From contig BQIV01000002.1 in assembly GCA_021604005.1 (NCBI GenBank), positions 186,001-250,000 on the forward strand: a stretch of 64,000 nt of DNA. Reading direction: 5' to 3'. Under the pieces are notes generated by a model. That model did not search any database. It saw only the letters and a list, made by a program, of their open reading frames with translations, and was not told the origin of the DNA. This DNA comes from Nitrospirales bacterium. GTDB lineage: Bacteria; Nitrospirota; Nitrospiria; Nitrospirales; UBA8639. Made by a program: the position numbers and the translations under genes. Of this stretch, positions 31,731 through 53,861 are shown piece by piece (position 1 is the stretch's first letter; every line of letters begins with the position of its first letter).

Positions 31731-31948
31731 GGGTCAGTATGAGGTGCACTCAACTTTAGAACATCAGGCGGGAGAGTTGCTCCGGTCAACTCAGCTAGAC
31801 ATGCGGGACAGAGGCATTCATGAAACTGTTCGACAATCGATGTATATTGTTCATCGGTCACCGGCATCGCACCGCACCAACAACCAAAGAGTCCACAAAT
31901 AAACGCTTGCTGGCATCGTTCACATGTCTTGGGAATTCGACGTTTCAT
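31727..31948 (-). CDS. Cysteine-rich CWC family protein
   Basis: 73 residues with eight or nine cysteines: CERC, CWC in FGCWCGAMP, and CLCPACL. This is the cysteine-rich CWC family (function unknown; the cysteines probably bind metal). It overlaps cbiB by 4 bp and follows cobS by 13 bp, so it is a true member of the cobalamin operon. A second paralogue sits at 36679-36900, upstream of bluB. Confidence 0.85.
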   Translation of the reverse strand: MKRRIPKTCERCQQAFICGLFGCWCGAMPVTDEQYTSIVEQFHECLCPACLAELTGATLPPDVLKLSAPHTDP

Positions 31949-31961
31949 ATTCTGACTTCCC

Positions 31962-33799: not shown

Positions 33800-34386
33800 T
33801 TCAGTTGAAGTGGAATGCCACTCGCCACAAAATAGACTTTATCAGCGGCAGCGGCAACCTGTTGATTCATACGGCCCGCACGATCTCGAAATTCCCGAGT
33901 CAAGGGATCACCGGGAACAATACCAAGCCCAACTTCATTGCTAATCACAATGACTCGACCAGGCACCCGACGAACAGACGTCAAAAACTCTTTAAGCAAA
34001 GAGGGAAATTTCTTACGTTGAACTGTATCTCCGAGAATATTGCTGAGCCAAAGAGTCAGGCAATCAACCACGACACTCTGATACGCCTTTCCCTTTGCGT
34101 GAAACCATTGACTCATATGGACGGGAATTTCTACCGTATCCCACGTTCCACGACGGCTTCGTTGATGCTTCCGTATCCGCAGAGCCATTTCGTGATCTAA
34201 TGGTTCTGCTGTCGCAAGAAACGCCCGTGGCTTCATCGTTCGAGTAAAGGTTAGGGCAAAGTCACTTTTCCCTGATCGCGCGCCTCCCAAGATTAAAATC
34301 AGTTCGTTCTTTGTTTTCGCTTGAGAAGATCGTTTTTTTGCAGGAGAAGATGTTTTCGTCATATTTCTTTTTGATACACGTGCCAT
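33796..34386 (-). CDS. cobU: Adenosylcobinamide kinase/adenosylcobinamide-phosphate guanylyltransferase
   Basis: 196 residues. P-loop GGARSGKS (34-41), H74 (RKHQRSRRG, the guanylylated histidine) and DCLTLWLSN are the CobU signature. It phosphorylates and guanylylates adenosylcobinamide. A long lysine/serine-rich N-terminal tail precedes the P-loop; an alternative ATG at 34362 would shorten it by 8 codons. Overlaps cobT. Confidence 0.95.
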   Translation of the reverse strand: MARVSKRNMTKTSSPAKKRSSQAKTKNELILILGGARSGKSDFALTFTRTMKPRAFLATAEPLDHEMALRIRKHQRSRRGTWDTVEIPVHMSQWFHAKGKAYQSVVVDCLTLWLSNILGDTVQRKKFPSLLKEFLTSVRRVPGRVIVISNEVGLGIVPGDPLTREFRDRAGRMNQQVAAAADKVYFVASGIPLQLK

Positions 34387-34476
34387 TCGTATGAATAAGA
34401 TTTACTTGTTAGCAATGAATTTTTCCTGCATACTTGATGAAAACGATCACACGAACGCCTCTATGGTTCACCTCTC

Positions 34477-34502
34477 GCGTTACGTTTCACGTTTCACGTT
34501 TT
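34477..34502 (+). repeat. Heptad-type TTTCACG run
   Basis: GCGTTACGTTTCACG followed by TTTCACGTTTT overlaps the last codons of pduO. Related runs occur at 6945-6980, 36995-37028 and 50326-50362. Confidence 0.6.
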
Positions 34503-35091
34503 CCGCCTTCTGTAATTCTCGTTGCCATAGATACTCAGGCTCCTCTTGCGTTTTCGCCACCCATCGTGCCAGGACAAAGAGCGCATCACTTAGTCGATTC
34601 AGAAACTTGACCATGTGTGCATCAACCGGTTCATCTCGTGCTAGCGTGACACATAACCGTTCGGCACGCCGGCATGTCGTGCGGGCTTGGTGCAGAAATC
34701 CCGAGACTTTTCCGCCACCCGGCAAAATAAACTCCTTCAGCGGCTCAAGATCCCCTTGGCATTCGTCAATAATATTTTCTAATTGCTTCACGTGATCTGC
34801 GGTGACAGTCGGCATATTCGGAAACGTCTCTCCAGGAGCTGTCGCTAAGATGCCTCCAAGGTCAAACAATTTATTTTGAATCCACTGCAGTGTCTGCTCA
34901 AGACGTTCAGCTTCCTCACATTTCGGCTTCTCTTCACTATTGAACACGCGAGCCAACCCAATGACCGCATTCAATTCATCAACCGTTCCATACGTCTCAA
35001 CACGCAGGGAGTCTTTCCAGACTTCTTGGCCTCCGGCTAAACGCGTCTTTCCGGCATCGCCAGTTCTCGTATAGACTTTAGAAATTCGCAT
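34480..35091 (-). CDS. pduO: PduO-type ATP:cob(I)alamin adenosyltransferase
   Basis: 203 residues. N-terminal TRTGDAGKTRLAGG (9-22) binds ATP; RVETYGTVDELNA, FILPGG and CRRAERL complete the PduO fold. It adds the upper adenosyl ligand. The final residues (AENVKRET) come from a TTTCACG repeat that has grown into the gene end. First gene of the loop-assembly operon. A second, unrelated adenosyltransferase (CobO) is at 37059. Confidence 0.95.
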   Translation of the reverse strand: MRISKVYTRTGDAGKTRLAGGQEVWKDSLRVETYGTVDELNAVIGLARVFNSEEKPKCEEAERLEQTLQWIQNKLFDLGGILATAPGETFPNMPTVTADHVKQLENIIDECQGDLEPLKEFILPGGGKVSGFLHQARTTCRRAERLCVTLARDEPVDAHMVKFLNRLSDALFVLARWVAKTQEEPEYLWQRELQKAENVKRET

Positions 35092-35256
35092 GAATATTCC
35101 TCACACCAGTGACGAAAAAATGAAACTCTCGAAATGCCCACATGTGCACACCATTATGAGTTGACTAACTGAGACCATTTTGATTATTGAACACATACCC
35201 TTTATGAAGAATCTGAGACCTCACGAATCGTTTTCCAGACATGACAGGAGTCAATC

Positions 35257-35970
35257 ATGAACCGTAAGTATTTGGCATTTGATATTGAGACCGCCAAAAT
35301 TCTTCCAGAAGACTTTGGCGAGTTGCTGGCGCACCGACCACTCGGCATCTGCTGTGCCGCAACATGGGCCAGCCAGGAAGACGCCCCGCAACTGTTCTAT
35401 TCGCAACAACCCGATGGAACGCCAGCCGCGCAAATGAACCAACAGGACCTCTCGGCATTCGTCGACTTTCTTCTGGATCAAGCACAGAATGGATACAGTA
35501 TCCTCACATTGAACGGCTTGGGATTCGATTTCGATGTGCTTGCCGAAGAATCTACTCGTTGGGATGATTGTCGATACTTGGCACGTACGCACGTTGACAT
35601 CTTGTTTCATATTTTCTGTGAAAAAGGCTTTGGCGTCGGGCTCAACGCCGCCGCCAAAGCCATGGGGCTCAGTAAACCCGAAAACGTTGACGGATCAGTC
35701 GCTCCTCAGTTATGGAAAGATGGCGATTATCAACGTGTCCTCGATTATGTCGCTCAAGACTGTCGGCTGACGTTAGACATTGCTGAAACAAGTGAAAAGA
35801 ACAAAGCCTTTCAATGGATTACCCGAAAAGGGACAACGGGCTATGTTGACATTCCTTCGGGCTGGCAGTCGGTAGAAGAAGCCATGACCAAACCTCTCCC
35901 CGACACCTCATGGATGGATAAGCCATGGCCCCGGTCGAAATTTACGGCTTGGCTCGACTCCTCCTTGTGA
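35257..35970 (+). CDS. DEDD-type 3'-5' exonuclease-like protein
   Basis: 237 residues on the plus strand, against the cobalamin genes. FDIETAKIL (motif I, D-x-E), LTLNGLGFDFDVL (motif II) and DYVAQDCRLTLDIA (motif III, D) fit a predicted RNase H-like/DnaQ-like 3'-5' exonuclease family. Cytosolic; substrate unknown. It splits two cobalamin operons and may be unrelated to them. Confidence 0.82.
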   Translation: MNRKYLAFDIETAKILPEDFGELLAHRPLGICCAATWASQEDAPQLFYSQQPDGTPAAQMNQQDLSAFVDFLLDQAQNGYSILTLNGLGFDFDVLAEESTRWDDCRYLARTHVDILFHIFCEKGFGVGLNAAAKAMGLSKPENVDGSVAPQLWKDGDYQRVLDYVAQDCRLTLDIAETSEKNKAFQWITRKGTTGYVDIPSGWQSVEEAMTKPLPDTSWMDKPWPRSKFTAWLDSSL

Positions 35971-35993
35971 ACGACTCTCATCGTTACGACCAA

Positions 35994-36686
35994 TTACCGC
36001 TTCGCGGTTCTCTTCACATTGCCATTTCCATGTTTTCGTCCCCATGTCTCATAATGAACCAACTGTTCGAGCGGCAATCGTTTTCGCCAACCAGCTTTCT
36101 CTAAATCGGGACTCAACGAAAACTCTTTGACATAGCCCATACATAAATAGGCGACTACTTTCACGGACCGTGGAATGCCTACAAGGTTCTTTAACGCATC
36201 ATAATCGAGAATACTCACCCAGCCGATTCCAATACCCTCGGCACGAGCTGCCAGCCAAAGGTTTTGAATCGCACAACATGTGCTATAGACATCCGTCTCA
36301 CGAATGGTTGAGCGACCAAGGACATCTGGCCCTCCACGTTGCCTGGTGCAGGTGACACACAGATTGATCGGCGCCTCCTCAATACCCTCAAGCTTCAGAC
36401 TCCGATACAATTTAGCCTTAGACCCGCGATACCGCTGAGATGCTTCGTCATTCGCCTTCGTGAATAAGTGTTTCACCGACTGCTTGGTCTTCTTATCACG
36501 AATGACGACAAAATCCCACGGCTGCATGAACCCGACAGAGCCGGCATGATGAGATGCTTTGAGAATTCGCTCCAACGTCGCTTGAGGAATTCGCTTCGCC
36601 AAAAAATTTCGACGTACATCACGCCGCTCAAAAATCGCGCGATATACGGCGTCACGTTCTATTGTTGGGAACGCATGCTTACTCAT
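35994..36686 (-). CDS. bluB: 5,6-dimethylbenzimidazole synthase
   Basis: 230 residues from ATG 36686 (an upstream in-frame start at 36719 is within the preceding gene). YRAIFERRDVRRNF, GFMQPWDFVVIRD and AIQNLWLAARAEGIGIGWVSI are the BluB flavin signatures. BluB uses O2 to cut reduced FMN into DMB, the lower ligand used by CobT. It shows the host meets oxygen. Overlaps the upstream CWC gene. Confidence 0.96.
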   Translation of the reverse strand: MSKHAFPTIERDAVYRAIFERRDVRRNFLAKRIPQATLERILKASHHAGSVGFMQPWDFVVIRDKKTKQSVKHLFTKANDEASQRYRGSKAKLYRSLKLEGIEEAPINLCVTCTRQRGGPDVLGRSTIRETDVYSTCCAIQNLWLAARAEGIGIGWVSILDYDALKNLVGIPRSVKVVAYLCMGYVKEFSLSPDLEKAGWRKRLPLEQLVHYETWGRKHGNGNVKRTAKR

Positions 36687-36900
36687 TTGGAGACACCATC
36701 GTCTTTCCGTCAACACCACCGGTCTGCTCCTGCCCCACGGCCTTCAAACACGCTGGGCAGAGACAATTATCATAGTGGGCTTCGATCCATTCAAGTTGCT
36801 CCCGTGTCAGCGACACATCCTGACACCAACAGCCATGGCCGGACGTACATCCGAACGAGACTCCACATCGGCTGCAGGATTTAAGCTTTTGATATTCCAT
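36679..36900 (-). CDS. Second cysteine-rich CWC family protein
   Basis: 73 residues. CSRC, HGCWCQD and CLCPACL repeat the cysteine pattern of the protein at 31727 although sequence identity is low. Its end overlaps bluB by 8 bp. Two CWC proteins, each fused translationally to a cobalamin gene, suggest a metal- or thiol-related task in corrinoid metabolism; this is inference. Confidence 0.85.
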   Translation of the reverse strand: MEYQKLKSCSRCGVSFGCTSGHGCWCQDVSLTREQLEWIEAHYDNCLCPACLKAVGQEQTGGVDGKTMVSPNE

Positions 36901-36960
36901 ACTTCATGTTGCCATATACGCTAGCGTAATAATCAATGAGGTGCTTTTGATAGGCTTGTT

Positions 36961-37043
36961 GCTCGTGAATCATATCTTGTATTCCGTGTGTAGTCTTGCG
37001 TTTCACACTTCACGAATAACGCTTCACATTCTTCCCAAGACGA
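36961..37043 (+). repeat. 83-bp dispersed repeat, copy B
   Basis: Ungapped match to 6912-6994 (about 80%), in the gap between the CWC gene and cobO. Same orientation relative to the window. Confidence 0.75.
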
Positions 37044-37058
37044 ACGACGATTCACGAA

Positions 37059-37655
37059 TTAAAACTCAACGCCTTTCTGCGCCTTTACCCCTTTCCGAAA
37101 TGGGTGTTTCACCATTTTCATTTCCGACACCAAATCGGCGGCTTCAATTAACTCATCCTTGGCTCCACGACCCGTGATGACGACATGCATCATCGGCGGA
37201 CGTTCATTAAGTCCATCCAAGACCTGCTGAAGGGTGACATACTCATGATGAATCGCAATATTCAACTCATCGAGAATCACCATGCCGTACAGCTCATCAC
37301 GCAAGATGGTCAATACCCTAATCCAAGCCTCTTGTGCGAATCGCTTGTCTCGCTCCCGGTCCTGCGTTTCCCACGTATAACCTTCCCCCATTCGAAGAAA
37401 GGTGACCTGTTCCCCAAATCCTTTCAAGATCCGTTCTTCTGCCGTATCAATCGCTCCTTTGATAAATTGCACGACCGCAATTTTCATCCCATGACCGACA
37501 CTGCGCATCGCCATACCCAGAGCAGCCGTCGTCTTGCCTTTTCCCGCACCCGTGTATACGATCAGCAGCCCTTTTTCTTCTTGGGCGGCTTCAATGCGTC
37601 GATCAACCGACGCTTTCAGTCGCTGCATTCGTGCCTGATGATCTTGATCTGTCAT
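37059..37655 (-). CDS. cobO: CobO/BtuR-type corrinoid adenosyltransferase
   Basis: 198 residues. P-loop TGAGKGKTTAALG (35-47), VQFIKG, and ILDELNIA match CobA/CobO. It adenosylates cob(I)yrinic acid a,c-diamide and salvaged corrinoids. Overlaps the GNAT gene by 4 bp. Together with PduO this gives the window two unrelated enzymes for the same step. Confidence 0.96.
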   Translation of the reverse strand: MTDQDHQARMQRLKASVDRRIEAAQEEKGLLIVYTGAGKGKTTAALGMAMRSVGHGMKIAVVQFIKGAIDTAEERILKGFGEQVTFLRMGEGYTWETQDRERDKRFAQEAWIRVLTILRDELYGMVILDELNIAIHHEYVTLQQVLDGLNERPPMMHVVITGRGAKDELIEAADLVSEMKMVKHPFRKGVKAQKGVEF

Positions 37656-38170
37656 AGCAAAACCTTTAACTTTCTCCCACCTGATACGTCAAAGCCAACC
37701 TTCTGATAAAAACTGAAGGTTCGCCGAAACGTTGGAAGCGGTGGAGTCGTCACTTCAAGTCTTTTCCAACTTTTTTGTTTTCCATATTCTTTGACAGCCA
37801 CCATGAGCATGCCACCAATACCCTGAGAACGAAAATCTTGGCGAACATAGCACTCTGGAATGACCCCAAACTTTCCTCCCGCATAGAGGGCACAACATTC
37901 ACACACCGACAACAGGCCAAGAGGTTCTTCCCGGTCCGGGAGAGCGGCAAAAAAGACCACGTATTGCTCGGCTTCAATATACTGCCTAGCTTGCGCCTTC
38001 ATCAGGTCTACATTCACATCGAAAGAAGGCACATTTGTTTCTCGCATGACTTCTTGAAGCAGATCATTAACCATAGCTGAAATAGAACCTGCATCGTTTG
38101 CTGTGGCTTTCCGAATATTAACGTTTAACACAATACTTCTATACCCTAGGTCCTTTCCAGAAAGTATCAC
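37652..38170 (-). CDS. GNAT N-acetyltransferase
   Basis: 172 residues. The acetyl-CoA loop VRQDFRSQGIGGMLMVAVKE and beta-strand C4 around YQKVGFDVSGG are clear. First gene of the cobO transcript, with a 4-bp overlap. Substrate unknown; link to cobalamin is positional only. Confidence 0.85.
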   Translation of the reverse strand: MILSGKDLGYRSIVLNVNIRKATANDAGSISAMVNDLLQEVMRETNVPSFDVNVDLMKAQARQYIEAEQYVVFFAALPDREEPLGLLSVCECCALYAGGKFGVIPECYVRQDFRSQGIGGMLMVAVKEYGKQKSWKRLEVTTPPLPTFRRTFSFYQKVGFDVSGGRKLKVLL

Positions 38171-38470: not shown

Positions 38471-40642
38471 CTAAAAGTCAATTTGCATATTCAATTCATA
38501 TGATCGAGGCGATCCCAGCAGAACTTGATCCGGGTAAAACGTATCTCCCCAATACGCATACACCGTATCAAAGATATTGGTAATCCTCGCTAGAATCCGT
38601 ACAGGTCCGTTGTCATAAGCAACATGAACATCAACACGTTCATAATTTTTTAATGTTACCGTATTCGCATTATTGTTAAATCGATCGCTGACATAACGGA
38701 ATCGACCCCCAACTTCAAAAGGAAGGCCAGGAACATTACGATACCGTGTCCATGCATTCACGACCCAATTGGGAACATTCGGAGGCCTATTGCCAGAATT
38801 GGCTCCAAAAGATTCAAATTCAGCCACTGTAAAGGCCGCATTCGCACCCAAGCTCCACTGAGAAGTTGCTCGCATTGCGCTTTCTAATTCAAAGCCACTG
38901 GATCGTTGCCGCCCAACATTATCAACAAGCCCACCACCTCCGATAGGTACAAGAATATTTTTACGTTCAATGTAGTATCCAGCCAACAGCACCTCCAGAC
39001 GTCCATTCAAAAATTGAGACTTCATTCCGATTTCCCATTGATCTGCATTGGTCAAGTCAAAGTCCTGATTACCATTAACCAGAAAAATATTTGATCCGAC
39101 AGGATCGGCTCCTGAGGTCCATTGGCCGTAGGTCACAATTGAGTGAGTGAAATCATATACGACTCCAAGTCGCCAACTCAGGGGTCGAAACGTTCGTTCA
39201 AATGCATTGTCGGAGTTAACATTACCATCCAAATTAAAGCTGTCACGATTGAGTCGAATAAAATCCTGACGAAGTGCCGTGACCAATCGCAAATGAGAAG
39301 TCACCTCCAGAGAGTCTTCGAAGTACACCGCAATCGTTGTGATTTTTGTGGGATTCAGAAATGATTGTCCAGGATCTACAAACAACCCAGGTCTAGGATT
39401 GAAAGGATCAACACTATCCACATTCCCAAAGAACCGACTTCTCCGTGTAAAATCAACATAACTGAAATCCATCCCTAGTAATACCCTGTTGGGCAAGGTA
39501 GCAAGCGGAGACTTCACGGTCGCATTGATTCGATTACCGACAGTATGTTGGTCATGAGAGACAAAAAACCTATCACGATCAATAAGACCTGTCGTGGCAT
39601 TGAAGGTATACGTTTCAGCATTGCGCCACTCACGATCAGCCACAAAGTAATACACCGTATTGCGTAGCGAAAATGAAGGATTCAATTTCCATATCACGTC
39701 GAGATGCGTGAAGTATTGATGTGAATTCGCCTTCTCATTCGAAACATTGTAATTCAAGAACCGCATCCGTTTGTCGAGAGTTCGCCCATCTGTCGTTTCG
39801 ACCACACCCTTGAGAGGCTTGCTGCCAAAGGCCCCAGAAACCAGCGGAGTCCCCCAATAGTTTGGCAAAGAGTCTTCCATGTAATCGTAACCAAGAATGA
39901 TCTCTAATTCGTCCACAGGCTTCCAGAGAAGGGAGCCTGTGCCATTCAACGATCGTGAGTCAGCAGTCTCAACGTAGCCATCCGTCGACGTATGACTAAG
40001 GTCTATACGATAGGACAGTGTTTCACCTAAAGAACCACCGGCTCCGCCGCCTAATTTTATCGTGTCGTAACGACCATAAGACATTAAGGCTTCCCAGGAA
40101 TTTTGATCATTCGTTAGGGGGCGCTTCGTGACCATGTTCAATGTTCCTGCAATGGCACCTTGTCCATGCAAGACTGAGGCAGGACCTTTCAATAACTCAA
40201 TCCGATCCAAATTAAATCCATTTTGCGGACGACCGGCCATCGAGGCCGGGCCAAGCCAAATTCCATCGCGTAACACCGTGATTTGATTAACGGTAAATCC
40301 CCGCATTGAAAAACTAAAAGGTTGCCCAGGAGGGTCTCCCCACAGCACCCCAGGAACCATCTCAACAGACTGTGCGACAGATTGATATCCATTCTTTTTT
40401 AATTGCACATTATCAATACTATGAATAGATGCAGGCGTCTGTAATGGTGTCAACTCGAGGCGACTACTCGTTGACGGAGAATCTTTGAAGCGAAGATCTT
40501 GTCCCATGACAACCACTTCATCTAATCGAATGGGTTCATCCGACTGTTCTGTTTTTTCGCTCAAGCGTTGCTCGCCCCACACGTCTGAAAGCGTCCCGGC
40601 CATGATCATGACAGCCAGACACATCTCGATTGCTCGTTTCAT
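38471..40642 (-). CDS. TonB-dependent receptor under a cobalamin riboswitch
   Basis: 723 residues. Signal peptide 1-23, a TonB-box-like IRLDEVVVMG, plug domain (MRGFTVNQITVLRDG, LLKGPASVLHG) and a 22-strand barrel ending NMQIDF with terminal Phe. By sequence it is closer to ferrisiderophore/haem receptors (FhuE/FpvA-like) than to BtuB. A cobalamin riboswitch lies just upstream (40677-40815), so its ligand is more likely a corrinoid, a cobalt complex or another tetrapyrrole than an iron siderophore. It is transcribed after the CobN-like/ExbB/DUF2149 group. Confidence 0.92.
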   Translation of the reverse strand: MKRAIEMCLAVMIMAGTLSDVWGEQRLSEKTEQSDEPIRLDEVVVMGQDLRFKDSPSTSSRLELTPLQTPASIHSIDNVQLKKNGYQSVAQSVEMVPGVLWGDPPGQPFSFSMRGFTVNQITVLRDGIWLGPASMAGRPQNGFNLDRIELLKGPASVLHGQGAIAGTLNMVTKRPLTNDQNSWEALMSYGRYDTIKLGGGAGGSLGETLSYRIDLSHTSTDGYVETADSRSLNGTGSLLWKPVDELEIILGYDYMEDSLPNYWGTPLVSGAFGSKPLKGVVETTDGRTLDKRMRFLNYNVSNEKANSHQYFTHLDVIWKLNPSFSLRNTVYYFVADREWRNAETYTFNATTGLIDRDRFFVSHDQHTVGNRINATVKSPLATLPNRVLLGMDFSYVDFTRRSRFFGNVDSVDPFNPRPGLFVDPGQSFLNPTKITTIAVYFEDSLEVTSHLRLVTALRQDFIRLNRDSFNLDGNVNSDNAFERTFRPLSWRLGVVYDFTHSIVTYGQWTSGADPVGSNIFLVNGNQDFDLTNADQWEIGMKSQFLNGRLEVLLAGYYIERKNILVPIGGGGLVDNVGRQRSSGFELESAMRATSQWSLGANAAFTVAEFESFGANSGNRPPNVPNWVVNAWTRYRNVPGLPFEVGGRFRYVSDRFNNNANTVTLKNYERVDVHVAYDNGPVRILARITNIFDTVYAYWGDTFYPDQVLLGSPRSYELNMQIDF

Positions 40643-40676
40643 CCTTATCCCTTTCCACGAGGATTTCCTTCTTTAA

Positions 40677-40815
40677 TCTGGCCAGGTTTTCTGACTCAGG
40701 GCCTCCTACTCACCACACCTTCCCGTCAAACTTGACAGTGGTATTTTGTAGCTTTCGTTCCCTTCACAGCTGCGGGACAGTGTTGGACTTCCACCAATCT
40801 TCCCTCAACCAGATG
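40677..40815 (-). promoter_or_regulatory. Cobalamin riboswitch upstream of the 38471 receptor
   Basis: Read on the minus strand: GGGAAGATTGGTGGAAGTCC, TCCCGCAGCTGTGAAGGG, ACCACTG, GGGAAGG, and a B12 box GAGTCAGAAAACCTGGCC near 40681-40697. All blocks of the classical cobalamin riboswitch occur in order, with a short (9-base) variable loop between CCACTG and GGGAAGG. It should repress the receptor when B12 is plentiful. Confidence 0.93.
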
Positions 40816-40848
40816 GAGAATGTTTATGCGAGCGTTAGTTAGTCATCA

Positions 40849-41160
40849 TTATTTTTTCGAACTCCTTTCGATCAGATAGAGTTTCCCTGTTTTGGGATCC
40901 CGAAAAACCTGGCCCATGGACTCATAGCCATCCCCCATACTTTGAATTCCTGCTGGAATCTGCGGGAGCTCTTGGCCCTTTTCGACAACTTGAGGTTGAG
41001 TCAATCGTTCAATCAATTCCGGGCTTAAGGCCGCAAGCGCTGCAATGAGACCACACGCAAAGACAAGCATGATATCCACCAAATTCGCGAGTGGCCCCAA
41101 CGGCTCATCTTCCTGTATATCAAAGCGACTTGATCGCCAGGTAGATCGCTTCACAAGCAT
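40849..41160 (-). CDS. DUF2149 protein, ExbD-like single-pass membrane protein
   Basis: 103 residues. One transmembrane helix (about 25-46) contains LVDIMLVF with D29, closely resembling the LVDVMLVL proton-conducting segment of ExbD/TolR; the C-terminal half would be periplasmic. DUF2149 genes are known next to CobN-like and MotA/TolQ/ExbB genes in methanogens and, as HmuV, in Bacteroidota haem operons. Lies 7 bp after the ExbB-like gene. Confidence 0.85.
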   Translation of the reverse strand: MLVKRSTWRSSRFDIQEDEPLGPLANLVDIMLVFACGLIAALAALSPELIERLTQPQVVEKGQELPQIPAGIQSMGDGYESMGQVFRDPKTGKLYLIERSSKK

Positions 41161-41167
41161 ATCTTCT

Positions 41168-41605
41168 TCATTCCTCCATCACGCTCAATACCTCTTCATA
41201 CCAACGCCGACGAACTCGTCCAAGCACAAAACCAATGATACCCGTTAATAGACCCAACACTGTGGTATCGAATGCTACGGTGACTGCGGTTGTCAGAATA
41301 GACAGATCTCCCTGACCTAATCCCGATAGACCTGGCCCTAAGGGAATCAAGGTTCCCATCAACCCCAACATTGGAGACACGCGGGTTAAGATATCAGTCC
41401 GTTCGGTTCGCCATCGTGCAACTTTTTCGAAATGCATGCGATCACTGGCTGTTAAAATTTCCTTCAATCCCCAAAACCGTTCACCGATCGCGATACCGAT
41501 TTCCCACACCGCCAACACCAACATGAGTCCCAAACCCAGAATAATGGGATATAAAAGAATTAACACAAAGTCATGCATGATCGTAATTATGACGCCATTA
41601 AACAT
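41168..41605 (-). CDS. MotA/TolQ/ExbB-family proton channel
   Basis: 145 residues from ATG 41605, which overlaps the CobN-like stop as TGATG; GGGAG upstream supports it. Three membrane segments; the family signature SPMLGLMGTLIPLGPGL and TTAVTVAFDTTVLGLLTGIIG is clear. The conserved position, size and partner are those of HmuU-type ExbB proteins. It would form a stator with DUF2149 and harness proton flow. Confidence 0.9.
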   Translation of the reverse strand: MFNGVIITIMHDFVLILLYPIILGLGLMLVLAVWEIGIAIGERFWGLKEILTASDRMHFEKVARWRTERTDILTRVSPMLGLMGTLIPLGPGLSGLGQGDLSILTTAVTVAFDTTVLGLLTGIIGFVLGRVRRRWYEEVLSVMEE

Positions 41606-44600
41606 CAGGTCTTCTCCCAAGGTTTACCGCGGCCGGTACGAATACCGAGATAAAGGAGTAGGAACGCAAGGCTAAGAAGGAGCCAAGCATGTGACACCGC
41701 CGTTTCGATCATACTACTGTCCGAATCAGATTGAGAAACAGCAGTGTTCGTCGTAACCTCATCCGTCTCAATCTCGGCAATCGCTGTCGTGCTCTCCTCT
41801 TGAGCAACATCCGGCATCTGCTCTCGGGCTAACACCTCATGCAACCCCTTCAATTGATCGGGGGCAAGACGATTCGCCATCCAATCGAATACTGGATGAT
41901 CGGGTCGTGTATGACCACTCCCCGGCAATCCATGCTGAATAAGTAATTGCGCGAGTTGCCCACTCAGCTCATTCAATGTGCGGTCGTCAGCTTCCCAAAA
42001 CCCCTTTTGTACGGCCACGAGCATCACCGTCAGCATATTCGTTTTGACATGAACGTTATGCCCTTGTTCAAGAAATGCGTCGAGACCAAGATCATAATGA
42101 TCATCCAGGTACACTGATTTCACCTCATCCCACATCGCACTTGAGATGATTTCGGGGTTCGTCACTTGCCAGCCCCACAAATACTCAAGAAACTCACTCC
42201 CCATCGTGCGTGCACCAGCATAATCATGCTTCATCAATGCGCCTAACCAGATAGGATTGAGGAATTGCCCACGAAGCTCCATCATCAGCGCTTCATCTAA
42301 ATTGACCAACTTGGCCTGCTTGGGGTCCGCATGCCGCACAATACGCGCCTTCGGCGGTATCCCTGTGAGACTTTCAACGGCAAGACTTAATCCTCCGAGG
42401 TAATCAAAGGCATCATTATTATCCAACAGTCCGTACAGATTACTGGCTCGGCCTAAGTACGTATGGGCTACCTGTTGTAAGTTGGATTGAAATCGCGCTT
42501 GCATACGTTCTCCACGATAATCCACCCCGTATGCATGTCCCATGCGGTTCAGATAGGCCTGAGCAATTTCTTTTCTGTCTTCCCATGCACCAGAACGTTC
42601 GACTAAGGTGTTGACGCCAGCCCCATACGACCCCGGGGCTGTTCCAAAGATTCTCAGACTGGCTTCTCGTCCAGCAACTTGCGCCAGCACACCCGTTGCA
42701 AGTAAAGCCGTCGCTTCCTTTACCCATTGGGCAGCCACTCGGTTTTGCCGAAGAGATTCTTCTCCAGCATTGGCCAATGGTCCTAACAGTTCCAACGCAG
42801 CCTCGAGTGCCGAGCGAAGCGATGGATACTGACGTCGAATTGTCTGGCTCGCCCCATCGAGCGCTAACAACACAGCTTTGTCCAACCACTCCAACTGCGC
42901 CCCATATAAATCTCGAAACAAACCAGATGTTATAAAGACAACATCACGGCGTTCACTCTTGTCCGTCAACAATTCGCGGCGAATCGATGTTAAGATGCCT
43001 CGGCTGTTCCATACCGGCTCAATGCCCAACATGTTCAACCCAAACGCCATCATCGCTCCTTCGTCACGCACCGCATCGGATGCCCAGAGAATCACGGCCT
43101 CTTTGCCATCTTTTGATGCCGGGGTCTCCACTCGTGCTTTGGTCGCCAGTTCCTTTCCCAAGGCAAACCCTAAGCGTGTGGGCAGCAGACTGCCATCAAG
43201 CGCATGAAAGTTTCGCCCTGTTGGCAAGACTTCGGGAGTGCGGATCGGATCATTGCCTTTTCCCGGCTGAACAAAGCCACCAGCTAGAGCATTAAACAGC
43301 GATCGCAGCTCTTCCTTCGGCGAGTTTGCGAGATCCTGTCGTCGTGACCCAGCTTCTGATGTTTTTTCACTCTTTCCTCCCATGGAGGTTATCATGGTAT
43401 CCAGAGCCTGCGGGGTCCAATCTTTACCAAAAACATGGAGGCCCAGTGGCATATAGTTTTCCTGTAGCTTCGTGAGATAATGTCCGGTTTCATGCACGAG
43501 AAGGTCATCATCAACATCTTCAAAACGTATACCACGAATGCTCAATTCATCGGCCATGCTGACGGCAAGCTCATCTCGTAAATTCAGTCCGTCAATCCGC
43601 TCGCGAATGGCCGCCACGGAACGAATGCGTGCAGGTGAAGCAGGGTCAGGATCTGCGGCCTCAAATGTTTCGACCAATTGTCGAAGACCCAAAAGATCAT
43701 CGTACAATTCTGTCGTACTCAACGGTGGGGTTAGATGGCTAATCATCACCGCAAGACCACGGCGTTTGGCCTGAATCCCCTCCCCCACACCATCAACAAT
43801 GTAGGGGTAGATGCCAGGCGTGTCTCCTGCGATATGCCAAGAGTAGTCCAACAGACCAACACCAGCACTATGACGTGGAAGAAACTCGTAGGTTGAATGC
43901 CGCCCTAAATGAATGATGGCATCGGCCTGAAACTCTTCGCGAAGCCAAGAATAAAATGCCAGGTATTGATGCGTGGGAGGAAACGTCGTATTGGCATGCA
44001 ACAGTTCTTCGTTCAATTCCCACCCTCGTGGTGGCTGAGGACCAATGAACACATTTCCAAAACGTATACCGGGAATGAGCAGTTGCTGGTCTTGCACCAT
44101 TACACGCCCAGGGCTCGGCCCCCATCCACTCAAGCCTTCTATTTCAGTGTCACGAATCGCTTGACTCAACGTTTGAGCCTGACTCCAGTCTGTCCCACCG
44201 TTTATCAGCCTACGATATTCCTCTTCCAGTTGCGCTAAAAGGTCGTGGGCACGGTCTCGACTGGCATGCGCTGCCCCATCAAGAACAAATCGTACGTTCT
44301 CCAGGACTGACTCCAATAATTTCACCGCAAGCGTTCCCTCAGTAGCCTCAACTGCACTGTGCACATTTTCGTGAAGATACCCTAACGGACCGTACTCCAT
44401 TTCCGCTTGCAAGGGAGCCGGGAGTTGAGTGAACCAGCTTCGATAGTTATTCGGAGACACCGTGGCAATCAGCTTGGACATGCGACGTAGAGAATCTGCC
44501 TGTTCCGGCAAGTTCACGCCGCGCTCCTGAATAAGGTCCAATAATGCTTGGGGATCAGGTGGCAGCTTTCCCGTCTCATACCCCTGCGCCTTCATCTCCG

Positions 44601-45960
44601 TAAGCAAATGCCAAAGACTTGCAGGGACATCGAGATTGTCAGCCCCAACGTTGTGTCGACCTGGTGGATGATTGTAATACACAATGGCCACTCGCTTTTC
44701 CGCATTTGAGATCTTAACTAACCGATACCACCGACTCACCCGCTTGACGATCCGGTTCGTTTGTTCTGGAAGAGGTTGGGTGATACTGAGACGCAGACCG
44801 GTCAATTGATGGATCCAAGATTTCGTGACGGTTGCTAGTACGAGAGGCTGACTGACACCCTGAACTTCAGGCATCGCAATACGATAATGGACAGAATTCC
44901 AAGGAAGTCCGTCACCTGATAGTTCCCACTGATAATGTGTACGATCAGTCAGACGAAGTCCTTTGAGGACCGGCACGTTGAGACGCGACAAAATCTGGGT
45001 GGCTATTTCACGCCCCTCCCCGCCACCAATCACGAAATCCTGCAATGAAATAATGCCGGCCAGTGGAGCCTTTGTTTGCAATCTTTCGATCAGCGTCAAT
45101 GCTTGCGTACTACTTTCCCCCCATATCGCAAAGACGGCAAGACAATCCAATGCTTCGTTTCGGGCTGATGCACATATTTGATTAATCAGATCAATATTGC
45201 CCTTACTATCTCCTCGATCGTGATCGATGATGGCAATCCATGGCGTTTCGGGTTTTAACGCAATTTCATCCAATGGCTTCATGGCATGCTGGTGATAGAT
45301 GCGAACATTATCTCGAGAACGGACAACATCGATTCCCATGTCGACCCCTGCCGTCTTGAATATCAGAGCAATCATGTTCGCAAGATTTTCTTGACCACGA
45401 GCATGCCAATAGGCTTTGACTTCTATCCAACTCTTTTGACGGGGAAACTTCGTGGAACGTTCCTTGATCCACTCTAAAGCGCTCTGATTCTTTCGTGGAG
45501 CTTCGCCAATTGCCGTAATCGCATCGGCGCTCATGCCACGAAAGACCAGCCCCATATGATCTCGCGACTGCGTAACCAGTGACGGGGACGAACTGACAGC
45601 GAATACGGGCTTTGAACCGTAATTTTTTAGTAAACGTTGAAGTCGTGCTGCGTGATCGCCAAATATCGCGACGGCCAAGAACACATCACTCTGGTTGAGG
45701 AGTGTTTGAACTTCCGCATCACTCATCGTAGAAATTTGGGAAGTCGTTCGAAACACAAATTGATGAGATTGATGCCGTTCATGAAAGAAATCCGCCCCAG
45801 CCGCAAGATCGGCAGCCGAACGATCCGAGACAATAGCCAGAAGCGTTTTTCCAAAACTCACATTCGTCGTCAGAATGAGCATGAACAGCATGCCACACAA
45901 CACACGAAAGAACCTTGCGGTGCAAGAAACAACCATCATTCGATGCCCGACACGTGTCAT
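41605..45960 (-). CDS. CobN-like (magnesium/cobalt chelatase large subunit) protein with signal peptide and membrane anchor
   Basis: 1451 residues from ATG 45960. The CobN/BchH core is present throughout (IIHLGRHSTYEFLPRH, HTRPDHPVFDWMA, GSYGAGVNTLVER). Unlike cytosolic CobN, it begins with a hydrophobic export signal (residues about 20-38, VLCGMLFMLILTTNVSFG) and ends with one transmembrane helix (about 1424-1442, LLLSLAFLLLYLGI) plus a short basic tail. This predicts a periplasmic enzyme tethered to the inner membrane, as for HmuS of Bacteroidota haem operons, which removes iron from haem. Followed by ExbB and DUF2149 genes; preceded by cbiA with 4-16 bp overlap. No AAA chelatase subunits are present. 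Confidence 0.88.
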   Translation of the reverse strand: MTRVGHRMMVVSCTARFFRVLCGMLFMLILTTNVSFGKTLLAIVSDRSAADLAAGADFFHERHQSHQFVFRTTSQISTMSDAEVQTLLNQSDVFLAVAIFGDHAARLQRLLKNYGSKPVFAVSSSPSLVTQSRDHMGLVFRGMSADAITAIGEAPRKNQSALEWIKERSTKFPRQKSWIEVKAYWHARGQENLANMIALIFKTAGVDMGIDVVRSRDNVRIYHQHAMKPLDEIALKPETPWIAIIDHDRGDSKGNIDLINQICASARNEALDCLAVFAIWGESSTQALTLIERLQTKAPLAGIISLQDFVIGGGEGREIATQILSRLNVPVLKGLRLTDRTHYQWELSGDGLPWNSVHYRIAMPEVQGVSQPLVLATVTKSWIHQLTGLRLSITQPLPEQTNRIVKRVSRWYRLVKISNAEKRVAIVYYNHPPGRHNVGADNLDVPASLWHLLTEMKAQGYETGKLPPDPQALLDLIQERGVNLPEQADSLRRMSKLIATVSPNNYRSWFTQLPAPLQAEMEYGPLGYLHENVHSAVEATEGTLAVKLLESVLENVRFVLDGAAHASRDRAHDLLAQLEEEYRRLINGGTDWSQAQTLSQAIRDTEIEGLSGWGPSPGRVMVQDQQLLIPGIRFGNVFIGPQPPRGWELNEELLHANTTFPPTHQYLAFYSWLREEFQADAIIHLGRHSTYEFLPRHSAGVGLLDYSWHIAGDTPGIYPYIVDGVGEGIQAKRRGLAVMISHLTPPLSTTELYDDLLGLRQLVETFEAADPDPASPARIRSVAAIRERIDGLNLRDELAVSMADELSIRGIRFEDVDDDLLVHETGHYLTKLQENYMPLGLHVFGKDWTPQALDTMITSMGGKSEKTSEAGSRRQDLANSPKEELRSLFNALAGGFVQPGKGNDPIRTPEVLPTGRNFHALDGSLLPTRLGFALGKELATKARVETPASKDGKEAVILWASDAVRDEGAMMAFGLNMLGIEPVWNSRGILTSIRRELLTDKSERRDVVFITSGLFRDLYGAQLEWLDKAVLLALDGASQTIRRQYPSLRSALEAALELLGPLANAGEESLRQNRVAAQWVKEATALLATGVLAQVAGREASLRIFGTAPGSYGAGVNTLVERSGAWEDRKEIAQAYLNRMGHAYGVDYRGERMQARFQSNLQQVAHTYLGRASNLYGLLDNNDAFDYLGGLSLAVESLTGIPPKARIVRHADPKQAKLVNLDEALMMELRGQFLNPIWLGALMKHDYAGARTMGSEFLEYLWGWQVTNPEIISSAMWDEVKSVYLDDHYDLGLDAFLEQGHNVHVKTNMLTVMLVAVQKGFWEADDRTLNELSGQLAQLLIQHGLPGSGHTRPDHPVFDWMANRLAPDQLKGLHEVLAREQMPDVAQEESTTAIAEIETDEVTTNTAVSQSDSDSSMIETAVSHAWLLLSLAFLLLYLGIRTGRGKPWEKT

Positions 45961-47345
45961 CTTGATTGGCAATCCCTTGCAGTCTGAAGCAGAGCAGATA
46001 CCAGGTGAGGATTACTGGAAAAATGTAAATGCGTATACAAAGCCATCACGTTTTTGACCGTAATCCCATCACTGCCTCGATCTCGTCCCTGTGAATCGGC
46101 AAGGCTTCCGCCATACTCCAGATCACCTTTGGCTTGAAGGCATGAATAGTGAAACTCATGACCACGCACTTTTATGCCCTGCGCCCCTAGCATTCCAGAA
46201 CACGTTAAGGTCAATTCGCGATACCCAAGGACCATCTTCGTTCGACTCATAGCTGCTTCCCCAGGAATCACCCCAACCATTTCGTATGAACGCCCATGAA
46301 AATCTATAAGAGTAGAAGTCAGATACATCAAACCGCCGCATTCCGCATAGATCGACCTTCCTAGAGCGGCAAAGTCCTGAATCGCCTTTCGCATCGACAC
46401 ATTCTTTTCCAATTGCGCGGCATGGACTTCTGGATAGCCACCACCAATATAGAGCAAATCGACGGGAGGTAGTTCACGATCATGGAGCGGAGAAAATTTC
46501 ACAAGCTCTGCACCTTCCGCCTCGAGCATTTCAAGATTGTCTTGATAGTAAAAACAAAAAGCGGGATCGTAGGCCACACCCACTTTGATCGTGGGGGGCA
46601 TCTTTCGACTCGAAACATCTAGAGGTTTACTCTCTTCCGTACTCGTCAGTTCAGGCGCTGACTGCGCAAGCTGTTCGATCAAATCCAGATCGACGGTTTC
46701 TGAAATTGACTGTCCTAAACTTTCATAAAAACTCCCATTCTTTCCTTCGATTGCTGTTTGAAGACCCAAATGCCGATCGGGTATCGTGAGTCCAGGATCA
46801 GGCCGGACGTAGCCAACAACCTTCACTTTCGTTTCATTTTCAACCGCATCCTTTAAGAGTCGAAAATGGCCGTCACTTTTAATTCGATTAAAGAGGACAC
46901 CATTGATATGAAGGGCCGGATCAAACATCGCATAGCCATGCACCATGGCTGCGGCCGAACGAGCCATGGCGCTAGCATCGACGACCAAGAGGATAGGAAG
47001 CCCTAGTTGTTTGGCCTGTTCAACGGCACTGCCTCGTTCACTGACCGGAGAACTCCCGTCAAAAAGGCCCATCATGCCTTCTACAATGGAAAGATCCGCA
47101 TCGCGAGCCGCCGTGAGAAATGTTGTTCGATTAGTCTCATGGTCGAGCATCCACCCATCAAGATTTCGAGAGTCGCGGCCACTAGCCATGTGATGATGTC
47201 CCGGATCGATAAAGTCCGGACCAACCTTAAACGGTTGTACCCGACGACCCTTGGCTCGAAACGCAGACAACAGCGCCAATGTCACGGTTGTCTTGCCCAC
47301 ACCACTATGCGTACCAGCAATTAATAATCGAGGATAGGTCATCAT
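45957..47345 (-). CDS. cbiA: Cobyrinate a,c-diamide synthase
   Basis: 462 residues. ATPase P-loop GTHSGVGKTT (11-20), DPxHHH region (FIDPGHHHMA) and a class I glutaminase with C336 (YAECGGLMYL) and the YTHLHF His. Amidates the a and c side chains of cobyrinate. The CobB/CbiA split cannot be made from sequence alone. The CobN-like gene follows with overlap, so both share a transcript. Confidence 0.95.
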   Translation of the reverse strand: MMTYPRLLIAGTHSGVGKTTVTLALLSAFRAKGRRVQPFKVGPDFIDPGHHHMASGRDSRNLDGWMLDHETNRTTFLTAARDADLSIVEGMMGLFDGSSPVSERGSAVEQAKQLGLPILLVVDASAMARSAAAMVHGYAMFDPALHINGVLFNRIKSDGHFRLLKDAVENETKVKVVGYVRPDPGLTIPDRHLGLQTAIEGKNGSFYESLGQSISETVDLDLIEQLAQSAPELTSTEESKPLDVSSRKMPPTIKVGVAYDPAFCFYYQDNLEMLEAEGAELVKFSPLHDRELPPVDLLYIGGGYPEVHAAQLEKNVSMRKAIQDFAALGRSIYAECGGLMYLTSTLIDFHGRSYEMVGVIPGEAAMSRTKMVLGYRELTLTCSGMLGAQGIKVRGHEFHYSCLQAKGDLEYGGSLADSQGRDRGSDGITVKNVMALYTHLHFSSNPHLVSALLQTARDCQSR

Positions 47346-48166: not shown

Positions 48167-50179
48167 TTACTCGTCTGTTGAAGATTCAGAGAAAACAGGA
48201 AGTTCAAAATTTACACGCACACCAGCCCAAACTGAACGGCCAGGAGTTCCAAAGAATAACACCTCTTCATATTTTCGATCCGCAAGATTTTCAACTCGTG
48301 CATAAACCTGAAGACTCTTCGTGACATCATAGGTTCCGGCAACATTAAAGAGATAGAAGTCTGGAAGCGGCCGTTGATTCCCCGTTGTACTAAACCGCGA
48401 CCCGACATACCGAAAGATTCCGGTCAGGCTAAAAGAATCAATGGGTTGATAGGTAAGAGACGCGCTCCCTTGATGAACAGGCCACCGCGCTAAGCGTGTA
48501 CCAGTCAGCAAGTCTCTTGTGGACGTATACGTATACTGTCCATCCACACTCATGCGCTTCATACCTGGCAAGTCTTCCGCCACAACCACATTCAAACTCG
48601 TCTCCACGCCTTTGACTCGTGCGCTGCCAATATTCTGTGCACAAAAGCCAAAAATCGTAAAGGGAGCGCAACCAACAGGATCAAACGCCGTAACAATCAA
48701 TTGCCGATACCGGCTCCAAAAATATCCCACACTCATCTTGAGACGTTGTTGAAAGAGCGTCTGATCAATCGCCACATCCCAGTGTTGACTGGTCTCCGGA
48801 ACTAATGTTGGGTTTCCGAAATTCGGAAAAAAGAGTTCGTTGATATCCGGTGTCCGAAATCCGGTCGCATAACTTGCTCGTACTTTTGTACCTGTTTCTT
48901 TCAGAAGATATCCGCCGGTTACTCGATACGTAGTCTTATCCCCCGCCGTGTTATGCGCATCTTGGCGGACTCCGGCCGTGGCAAAGAATCGATCAAACAG
49001 ATTCAGTTGAGCCTGTGCGAACCCCGCATGACTTGAAATAACTTTTTCAGCAAAACTGCCTTTGTTTTTTCCAAGTTGTTCTCGAAATTGATACCCTACA
49101 GTCACAATGACAGGCTTACCAATGTAAACATTACTTTGCCATTCAAGCCGATTACTTTTCGTTCGAATATCTGAATTCCCAAATTCTGGGGGGACACTCA
49201 AGAGTCCTGTCGCGAGACTCAGCTGATTCGTCCCGGCTTGCGTGATGCCCGTTTCCCGAGCATGTGATACGGTAATCTTTTGGTCCCACCAATCGGTGAT
49301 TGGCTGATGATACGTCCCGCTATAGATATACTGCCGACTCGTTGACTTCGCCTTCAAGACATCAAACGGCCCACCAAAGGTACTCGGATTATCAATATCA
49401 ACGTCATTATTAATCCACCGAAACGCAAGCTCTAACCGTCCATCCCATGGCGTATTCACACCGATCAACGACGACCCTTGCCAGTTTCGCGTCGCGTCAC
49501 GCTCTCCGGCCCCTCGACGAAAATTAATCGAAGAAAACTTACTCATATCGAAACGAGACAACGCCACCGAAAAATCCACAGATCCAACCTGTCCAGCCAA
49601 ACTTCCACCTTCTCGAATCGAATTGAAGGAACCATACTCCGCGAACATTCTTGCGACAGGCGTACCTTTTCCACGCTTCGTTCGAATATCCACAACCCCA
49701 CCCATCGCATCCGAACCCCATAACATACTCTGGGCACCTCGTAGGACCGTAATTGACTCGATATTGTCCGTCGTCAATGTTCCTAAATTCGCGTCTCCTA
49801 ACGTCGCACTATTAATAATGGCGCCATCGATGAGTACCAATGTCTGCCCGGATTGTCCACCGCGAATGCGAAGAGATGCAGTCGTCCCTGGTCCACCAGT
49901 CGAAAAAATCGCTGTGCCCTGGCTAAGCCCCAATGTTTCAACAACGGTTCTATCGTTTCGGCGCTGAAAATCTTCTGCTGTAATAACTTCAACTGCACTC
50001 GTGATATGGCTGAGCGGCACAGGGGTTTTGGTGGCACTGACGATGACAGGCTCTAACTGCTGAACGTCTTCTGACGTCGCCTTCTCTTGAGCCAACAAAA
50101 TCGAGGGAACAACAACGGCGAGACTCCAAAACAGAAACACGAAAACACGAATAATCGATCGATGATAACTAAAAAACAT
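48167..50179 (-). CDS. btuB: BtuB-like TonB-dependent vitamin B12 receptor
   Basis: 670 residues from ATG 50179, chosen because GGGAGGTGGG precedes it; a GTG 21 bp earlier is possible. Signal peptide, TonB-box-like VIVSATKTP, plug (LRIRGGQSGQTLVLIDGA, VLRGAQSMLWGSDAMGG) and a 22-strand barrel ending VNFELPVF. A cobalamin riboswitch lies immediately upstream, and btuF-btuC-btuD precede it. Confidence 0.92.
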   Translation of the reverse strand: MFFSYHRSIIRVFVFLFWSLAVVVPSILLAQEKATSEDVQQLEPVIVSATKTPVPLSHITSAVEVITAEDFQRRNDRTVVETLGLSQGTAIFSTGGPGTTASLRIRGGQSGQTLVLIDGAIINSATLGDANLGTLTTDNIESITVLRGAQSMLWGSDAMGGVVDIRTKRGKGTPVARMFAEYGSFNSIREGGSLAGQVGSVDFSVALSRFDMSKFSSINFRRGAGERDATRNWQGSSLIGVNTPWDGRLELAFRWINNDVDIDNPSTFGGPFDVLKAKSTSRQYIYSGTYHQPITDWWDQKITVSHARETGITQAGTNQLSLATGLLSVPPEFGNSDIRTKSNRLEWQSNVYIGKPVIVTVGYQFREQLGKNKGSFAEKVISSHAGFAQAQLNLFDRFFATAGVRQDAHNTAGDKTTYRVTGGYLLKETGTKVRASYATGFRTPDINELFFPNFGNPTLVPETSQHWDVAIDQTLFQQRLKMSVGYFWSRYRQLIVTAFDPVGCAPFTIFGFCAQNIGSARVKGVETSLNVVVAEDLPGMKRMSVDGQYTYTSTRDLLTGTRLARWPVHQGSASLTYQPIDSFSLTGIFRYVGSRFSTTGNQRPLPDFYLFNVAGTYDVTKSLQVYARVENLADRKYEEVLFFGTPGRSVWAGVRVNFELPVFSESSTDE

Positions 50180-50225
50180 GAACCCACCTCCCTTTCGCAC
50201 GAAGGGTGTTATGGAAAAAATTGGA

Positions 50226-50586: not shown

Positions 50587-51417
50587 CTATACTGGCAACG
50601 AAACTCTCGGCATCCCCGACTGCGGGTGCCGATCAACTAACACCGCGCATCCATAGACCTGTTCTAAAACATCAGGCCTGATCACCTCTTCAGGTGTCCC
50701 TGTGTGTACAATGTGACCATGATCCAAGAGCAGCAACCGGTCGCAATATTGACTCGCTAAATTCAGATCATGCGAAACCAGAATGACTGTGAGTCCACGT
50801 TCTTGATTCAACCGCCTGAGAATTCTGGCAATATCCAACTGATGATGCAAATCCAGAAATGCCGTAGGTTCATCTAACAGTAATACTTTAGGATCTTGAG
50901 CGAGCGCCCTCGCAATGATCGCACGTTGTCGTTCACCTCCCGAGACATCTGTAATGAGTCGATCAGCCAGATGAGCGACATCGAGATCTTGCATCGCACG
51001 TTCCGCAATCACAAGATCCTCGAAATCTTCCCAGTGCCAGCCCCCCAAACCGGTATGATGTGGGTAACGACCCATCAAGACCATTTCGCCAATGGTAAAC
51101 GGAAAAATTTGCTGCGTTTCTTGTGGAACGAATGCCACGGCTTTGGCAATGGCTGCTTGCGAGAGCCGCTGCATATCTTGCCCGTAGAACTCAAGACGTC
51201 CTTCTTGAATGGAGAATACTCCCGCCAAGAGTTTGAGCAAGGTACTTTTCCCGGATCCATTGGGTCCAAGTATCCCGAGAATTGATCCCGCATCAATCGA
51301 ACAGTTTACATCCGTTAAGACCGCCTCGGAGTTTTTCGCAAAGCGGGACCGATAACGGTAGGTCATCCCTCGCACAGACAATGCAGGGGGCGTACGGGAA
51401 TTTTCCAGTTTCATCAC
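50587..51417 (-). CDS. btuD: Vitamin B12 ABC transporter ATPase
   Basis: 276 residues. Walker A GPNGSGKST (51-59), signature DVSGGERQR, Walker B VLLLDEPTAFLD and the HDL switch are all intact. Overlaps btuC by 4 bp. Iron-siderophore ATPases look alike; the riboswitch and btuF make B12 the better call. Confidence 0.92.
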   Translation of the reverse strand: MMKLENSRTPPALSVRGMTYRYRSRFAKNSEAVLTDVNCSIDAGSILGILGPNGSGKSTLLKLLAGVFSIQEGRLEFYGQDMQRLSQAAIAKAVAFVPQETQQIFPFTIGEMVLMGRYPHHTGLGGWHWEDFEDLVIAERAMQDLDVAHLADRLITDVSGGERQRAIIARALAQDPKVLLLDEPTAFLDLHHQLDIARILRRLNQERGLTVILVSHDLNLASQYCDRLLLLDHGHIVHTGTPEEVIRPDVLEQVYGCAVLVDRHPQSGMPRVSLPV

Positions 51418-52565: not shown

Positions 52566-52595
52566 AATATCATCATGAGAAAGGTTTTTACGTTT

Positions 52596-52631
52596 AAGGT
52601 CTAAAGGGCACCTCTAAAAAACTTAGACCTT
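52596..52631. repeat. Inverted repeat enclosing a solo terminal repeat
   Basis: AAGGTCTAA (52596-52604) and TTAGACCTT (52623-52631) flank GGGCACCTCTAAAAAA, one end of the MITE-like family. It lies in the btuF-btuC gap and could act as a processing hairpin. Confidence 0.6.
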
Positions 52632-52634
52632 AGA

Positions 52635-53639: not shown

Positions 53640-53640
53640 G

Positions 53641-53679: not shown

Positions 53680-53719
53680 TGCACCCGTTTCATCATCCTC
53701 ACCCATTCCCCAGCCCACG

Positions 53720-53826: not shown

Positions 53827-53861
53827 CATATGTTGCCATCGACTGTAGGCGAGTCGTTCAA

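Follow-up and report, generated by a model that had tools for sequence, protein, structure and literature searches.

In the window, a 64,000-nt stretch of contig BQIV01000002.1 from the 4.7 Mb genome of a Nitrospirales bacterium of the nitrite-oxidiser type, a corrinoid salvage operon contains a cassette for a CobN-like protein that is predicted to be exported and anchored in the membrane, followed by genes for an ExbB-type protein and a DUF2149 protein and, behind a cobalamin riboswitch, for a TonB-dependent receptor. This suggests that metal is inserted into or removed from scavenged B12-like rings outside the cytoplasm. Predicted export and anchor, the gene set, a corrin-type residue, control by B12 riboswitches and the absence of ring synthesis are read from the sequence; the coupling to a motor, the corrin as substrate, the direction of the reaction and the source of the metal we infer. 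We propose that the cassette encodes a class I chelatase of the periplasm that is driven by the proton motive force and acts on scavenged corrinoids, more likely in the direction of cobalt insertion, a reading to which we give a little less than an even chance. The cassette and the salvage operon lie entirely on the minus strand; coordinates are positions in the window.

41605..45960, minus strand: cobN-like gene, predicted exported, C-terminally anchored class I chelatase of the BtuS/HmuS branch, about 1451 amino acids, start ATG 45960
41168..41605, minus strand: MotA/TolQ/ExbB-family proton channel subunit, ATG 41605, TGATG overlap, PF01618
40849..41160, minus strand: DUF2149 protein (HmuV family, PF09919) with one transmembrane helix carrying an ExbD-like Asp and a short outer domain
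40663..40828, minus strand: cobalamin riboswitch, 93.7 bits, directly before the TonB receptor
38471..40642, minus strand: TonB-dependent receptor, siderophore (FoxA/FhuA)-like, cassette member
37652..38170, minus strand: GNAT acetyltransferase, at the site of a PepSY_TM (FoxB/PiuB-like) reductase in sister cassettes

All parts seen in the initial annotation, namely the CobN-like gene, the TolQ/ExbB gene with its TGATG overlap, the DUF2149 gene with the motif LVDIMLVF, the riboswitch and the receptor, were found where it had placed them. The cobN-like gene is preceded by AAGGGA upstream of its ATG, which overlaps the stop codon of cbiA (ATGA), and its own stop codon overlaps the start of the exbB-like gene. 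The block is present in relatives from the Nitrospirales and the Nitrospinae with 61-83% identity, and the cassette riboswitch has the same position in L004, L005, L007 and L096; because the block recurs in relatives, the arrangement is no chance event.

The cobN-like gene is the only PF02514 gene of the genome. Its product matches PF02514 at 800 bits and falls below the cut-offs of the NCBIfam CobN models (574 versus 1619 bits and 463 versus 822) and of the BchH model (532 bits versus 829). By hydropathy its N-terminus reads as a signal peptide, with cleavage-like motifs kept in relatives (NVALA-K, PATA-K, SISHA-E, NLALA-K, PLMA-A), and its C-terminal helix closes with basic residues; both export signal and anchor are conserved across the clade, in agreement with the earlier proposal of an exported and anchored protein. 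A CobS/CobT or ChlI/ChlD partner was not found genome-wide, there being just weak partial MoxR/VWA matches that score below 40 bits where the cut-off is 779.

The 21 exported homologues in a tree of 36 CobN-family proteins, HmuS among them, all split from the cytosolic CobN and BchH proteins with a support of 100, and the split recurred (100/100) when a mixture model was used and the longest branches were left out. The window protein clusters with three proteins from Nitrospirales and one from Nitrospinae, a Marinobacter plasmid protein being further away. Because of this split and of the association of the anchor with DUF2149 (see below), the protein is assigned to the exported BtuS/HmuS branch and not to the CobN of cobalamin synthesis. 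The two refuting conditions named in the initial annotation, a firm place among cytosolic CobN with CobS/CobT partners and a lack of signal peptide or anchor in close homologues, were both checked, and neither applied. By the comparison with HmuS (see below) the clade of the window protein stands as a third lineage beside CobN and HmuS. CobN-family genes are rare in the order (7 of 147 Nitrospirales genomes).

The ExbB-type protein matches PF01618 (E 9.9e-9), and the channel Thr (GLMGT) is invariant in all 18 ExbB-type partners compared. The DUF2149 protein is narrowly above the Pfam cut-off (PF09919, 28.4 versus 27.1 bits); its sole transmembrane helix carries LVDIMLVF, the Asp of which aligns to the ExbD Asp and is kept in 17 of 18 proteins, with Glu in Runella. 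The profile match between DUF2149 and ExbD is short and weak (hhalign probability 14.6 over 21 columns), and the predicted structures are too low in quality to be of use (pLDDT 41 for the CobN-like core and 55 for DUF2149, with five sequences per alignment). Among 39 CobN-family genes, 23 anchored and 16 unanchored and related to one another, a DUF2149 neighbour was present in 22 of the 23 anchored versus none of the 16 unanchored cases (Fisher p 4.5e-10, uncorrected for kinship), and CobST/ChlID genes were nearby in 10 of the 16 unanchored versus one of the 23 anchored cases. By analogy with the AAA+ pair that powers CobN, we infer that ExbB/DUF2149 would power the anchored chelatase. The Marinobacter protein is cut short ahead of the anchor, and its gene has neither exbB nor DUF2149 as a neighbour. 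A tblastn search of plasmids with DUF2149 gave no match, probably owing to the short and divergent protein.

The lone exception to the linkage is a Cupriavidus plasmid (L074:5073-14137) with an anchored, exported CobN lacking ExbB and DUF2149; a cytosolic CobN follows about 1.1 kb downstream. In G139 (L054:7257-18490) the CobN-like gene appears to be split into two open frames (761 and 583 amino acids) with about 3 kb between them, DUF2149 and ExbB lying in the vicinity, and in several genomes of family f24 (G052, G075, G079, G168, G196) the cytosolic CobN is read as two open frames of about 800 and about 500 amino acids.

The HmuS of Bacteroidota (BtuS1/2), encoded in the operon hmuYRSTUV (PMC12583661, PMC6460266), was identified in 2025 as a haem dechelatase, together with its cryo-EM structure (PMC12583661). 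The catalytic His of the superfamily (HmuS His538 in the motif HFG(T/A)HG) is aligned and kept in the CobN-like protein as HLGRHST, with Arg and Ser where the HmuS motif has T/A and G; the His and its flanking motif (GRHST) are invariant in the clade. The HmuS motif LSLDHxxEFMGG (His1209, Glu1212) is unmatched, the clade having LLDNNDAFDYLGG with Asp at both the His1209 and the Glu1212 positions. The Asp at the His1209 position is shared by the clade and the corrin-acting CobN, while the porphyrin-acting ChlH, BchH and HmuS have His, and is thus a predicted corrin-type site. The haem ligands Met79 and His254 at the head/neck interface of HmuS are likewise unmatched (a gap and an Asp, respectively, in a region of weak alignment), and the Met-rich insert of HmuS domain IV is absent, 94 residues lying between the flanking blocks in the CobN-like protein versus 291 in HmuS. 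An identity as HmuS was therefore rejected despite the common gene set, as was an identity as BchH/ChlH, the protein being below the BchH cut-off and without His at the second cleft position. An exported CobN from Azospirillum (L060:4605-9336), also with ExbB and DUF2149, has His and not Asp where HmuS has His1209; immediately downstream of this set, and ahead of an ABC transporter, there is a cobalamin riboswitch.

Several related systems have been described. In 2003 Rodionov et al., as described in PMC6460266, proposed that exported CobN-like proteins form a third family, BtuS, beside CobN and ChlH, for metalloporphyrin salvage, periplasmic and membrane-anchored in Bacteroides. By that same description the window protein, too, is an exported relative of CobN that falls in neither the CobN nor the ChlH branch; it differs from those BtuS proteins in its context, which points to corrins. 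With the HmuS system, in which HmuU belongs to MotA/TolQ/ExbB and HmuV to DUF2149 (PMC10434189), the window shares an exported anchored CobN homologue, both partner types, a TonB receptor, the cleft His and the side of the tree, so that the likeness in gene set noted earlier is borne out; it differs in lacking HmuT and HmuY and in having a corrinoid salvage operon and B12 riboswitches instead of a haem/iron context. A cobN-exbB-exbD-tonB cluster with a link to B12 was reported from Geobacter lovleyi in 2012, without an assigned role (PMC3403914). The cluster on plasmid pSZ77 of this organism (Trichlorobacter; L047) resembles ours in exported CobN, ExbB, DUF2149, TonB receptors and tandem cobalamin riboswitches just upstream, and differs by DUF2162, an extra ExbB/ExbD/TonB set, a cobalt ECF transporter, genes for corrin synthesis that include a sirohydrochlorin cobaltochelatase, and its place in another subclade. 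Cytosolic CobN, working with CobS/CobT or ChlID, has the fold family and the corrin-type Asp of the cleft motif in common with the window protein; it differs in having neither export signal nor anchor, in AAA+ ATPase partners in place of a proton channel and in the tree split of 100. In P. aeruginosa the Zur-regulated genes PA1922-PA1925 for a TonB receptor, CobN-like and ExbD-like proteins, function unassigned (PMC4542158), are of the same types by description only and belong to a zinc, not a B12, regulon. A plasmid of Runella slithyformis (L071:1238-9272) carries genes for a TonB receptor, a NicO/DsbD-like membrane protein, ExbB, DUF2149 and an exported CobN in a NiFe-hydrogenase hyp cluster, which suggests a nickel version of the module. 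BtuS, HmuS and the B12-linked cobN-exbB-exbD cluster of Geobacter are thus already described, and the window cassette is a further variant. New within the literature examined are the clade in ring-less salvagers, the genome pairs with and without the cassette, the Asp/His site for the type of substrate, the strict association of DUF2149 with the anchor, and the range of contexts comprising haem, B12, nickel (Runella) and zinc (from the literature).

The order of genes on the minus strand is cbiP, btuF, btuC, btuD, riboswitch, btuB-like receptor, cbiA, cobN-like, exbB-like, DUF2149, riboswitch, siderophore-type TonB receptor, GNAT gene, cobA, bluB-like, pduO, cobU, cobT, cobS, cbiB, cobD and cbiZ, those around the cassette being:

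58363..60000, minus strand: cbiP/cobQ, cobyric acid synthase
53723-53838: cobalamin riboswitch of btuF
50587..53861, minus strand: btuD, btuC and btuF, inner-membrane corrinoid import, named from translations of the open reading frames and the order kept in relatives
48167..50200, minus strand: BtuB-like TonB receptor, preceded by a cobalamin riboswitch of its own (50211-50483)
45957..47345, minus strand: cbiA, cobyrinic acid a,c-diamide synthase, overlapping the cobN-like start
28955..37655, minus strand: late B12 genes cobA, bluB-like, pduO, cobU, cobT, cobS, cbiB, cobD and cbiZ

A PemK/MazF-like toxin gene (PF02452) is located at 47747-48094 on the plus strand and separates btuB from cbiA, a site without a gap in relatives such as L007; no antitoxin was identified. 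Elsewhere in the window (12980-15529, minus strand) a single frame of 849 amino acids combines an N-terminal TetR-type regulator with a complete squalene-hopene cyclase.

A corrinoid salvage operon surrounds the cassette in every clade member with visible flanks, which together with the B12 riboswitches supports the earlier view that the context is that of corrinoids rather than haem. In the window genome, OFTM51 and G218 the genes cobN-exbB-DUF2149-riboswitch-receptor are inserted exactly between cbiA and cobA, and in three members of the same family without the CobN-like gene (G191, G220, G225) the same operon has cobA directly after cbiA. Because these sister genomes keep the salvage operon without it, the cassette is accessory, under B12 control. 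In Geobacter, G116, G014 and Marinobacter, too, operons with an exported CobN are preceded by riboswitches. The window genome contains only two TP_methylases, one CysG-like and one RsmI-like, so that no corrin ring is made, and the count of two TP_methylases, and with it the absence of corrin synthesis, applies to all six clade genomes checked (window, NPIRA04, UBA8639, OFTM51, Nitrospinae MAG, G218), for some of which completeness is not given. OFTM51 (G216, L099:5167-10215) and G243 (L100:6696-11804) have a second exported CobN with ExbB and DUF2149, for which no riboswitch was found; in L099 di-haem peroxidase-like and PepSY genes are nearby. This second protein probably has a different substrate.

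In the proposed mechanism the large subunit would be exported and tied by its C-terminal helix to the ExbB/DUF2149 proton channel, which would take the AAA+ role of CobS/CobT and cyclically deform either the chelatase itself or the ring bound to it. A corrin would most likely be the substrate, and the more likely direction would be the insertion of Co(II) into cobalt-free or cobalt-depleted corrinoids imported via BtuB, and the metal might be supplied through the siderophore-type receptor of the cassette, in sister genomes together with the PepSY_TM reductase. The metallated corrinoid would then enter by BtuFCD and be completed by CbiA, CobA, CbiP, CbiB and CobUTS. Some purple sulfur bacteria make cobalt-free corrinoids, and cobalt is reported to be hard to take out of a corrin unless the ring is destroyed (PMC6771967).

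Several points weigh against cobalt insertion in the periplasm. HmuS, the sole characterised relative from the exported branch, removes metal, and at 88 sites separating CobN from HmuS the clade is mixed (131 CobN-like, 106 HmuS-like, 203 other). Sixteen ring-less relatives carry cbiA without CobN, so that adjacency to cbiA is no proof of a shared substrate; cbiA was dropped as a marker of exported CobN. The PepSY_TM gene is missing from the window at the expected place, and nothing indicates that Nitrospirales encounter cobalt-free corrinoids. The CobN enzymes known so far act on the a,c-diamide, a product that CbiA, being cytosolic, would form only after import; we know of no periplasmic CobW equivalent for the cassette, no genome-wide search for CobW having been made. 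CobNST requires CobW for cobalt (PMC10206600).

If the cassette instead worked in the direction of HmuS, the complex would strip imported corrinoids of cobalt, or of a wrong metal, for recovery of cobalt or re-metallation. The exported branch and the ExbB/DUF2149 partners common to HmuS speak for this, as does the PepSY_TM protein in the three sister cassettes of OFTM51, G218 and NPIRA04, since periplasmic siderophore reductases of the FoxB type belong to PepSY_TM (PMC10866019, PMC12424826) and HmuS requires reducing conditions (PMC12583661). Insertion is favoured over removal because corrin-bound cobalt is hard to strip (PMC6771967), because no corrin is made, which leaves freed cobalt without an obvious use in B12 synthesis, because CbiM was not found genome-wide (NiCoT transporters were not searched at that scale), and because the clade's cassette block has no HmuT/DUF2162-type transporter; candidates for an inner-membrane transporter (HmuT, DUF2162 or NicO/DsbD-like) are present in the HmuS, Geobacter-type and Runella-type modules. 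With Met79, His254, His1209 and the Met-rich insert also missing, we consider dechelation rather unlikely. Of the overall interpretation in the initial annotation, export, anchor, gene set, phylogeny and corrinoid context thus hold, and the part in which an HmuS was re-tasked to recover cobalt is not supported; the disposal of wrong corrinoids, also suggested there, is a conjecture.

The complex could also be an energised periplasmic carrier, whose head and neck bind the corrinoid released from the receptor and whose ExbB/DUF2149 pair drives its handover to BtuF, with no metal chemistry at all. In HmuS the head/neck interface binds haem besides the catalytic cleft and resembles periplasmic binding proteins (PMC12583661), and BtuFCD and BtuB are encoded in the same operon. 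The invariant catalytic-type His with its surrounding motif argues against a mere carrier, BtuF already serves this task and sister genomes do without the cassette, which makes the carrier distinctly improbable.

Alternatively, the substrate could be another metal chelate or a porphyrin, the protein being a general metallophore/porphyrin demetallase and the B12 control mirroring a need for cobalt only. The same set of exported CobN, ExbB and DUF2149 occurs beside the NiFe-hydrogenase maturation genes of Runella, in hmu haem operons and, in Nitrospirota and Geobacter, adjacent to CbiM/Q/O-like genes; the PA1922-1925 genes under Zur (PMC4542158) and the siderophore-like cassette receptor fit as well. 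The position within the salvage operon in all clade members with visible flanks, the Asp in place of the porphyrin-type His and the lack of an HmuT/DUF2162-type transporter leave this explanation very unlikely. That ExbB and DUF2149 merely energise TonB for the adjacent receptors, with the CobN-like protein as an unrelated passenger, agrees with an ExbB-family protein adjoining TonB receptors and is nevertheless hardly credible, since the pair tracks exported CobN rather than TonB receptors at large (of 198 Nitrospirota genomes nine have DUF2149, each of them together with a CobN-family gene) and is not needed for TonB itself because four ordinary ExbD genes exist elsewhere in the window genome.

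Taken together, the findings allow a wider, tentative reading, which we hold to be possible and would sooner doubt than accept: late cobalt insertion would have been moved outside the cytoplasm and the AAA+ ATP motor swapped for a proton-driven ExbB/DUF2149 pair, by which organisms that make no corrin could convert scavenged cobalt-free corrinoids to B12. On a broader scale, the motor of class I chelatases would come in two interchangeable kinds, AAA+ in the cytosol and ExbB/DUF2149 in the periplasm, serving both directions with Fe, Co, Ni and Zn. The genome pairs with and without the cassette and the Asp/His site allow direct tests. If the complex is driven by the proton motive force, this would be a second kind of motor for class I chelatases and would provide a testable model for the unexplained role of HmuU/HmuV (ExbB/DUF2149) in haem iron capture in the gut. 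If cobalt insertion is true, it would be a route to living on metal-free corrinoids, which would be a new currency of B12 exchange in nitrifying communities.

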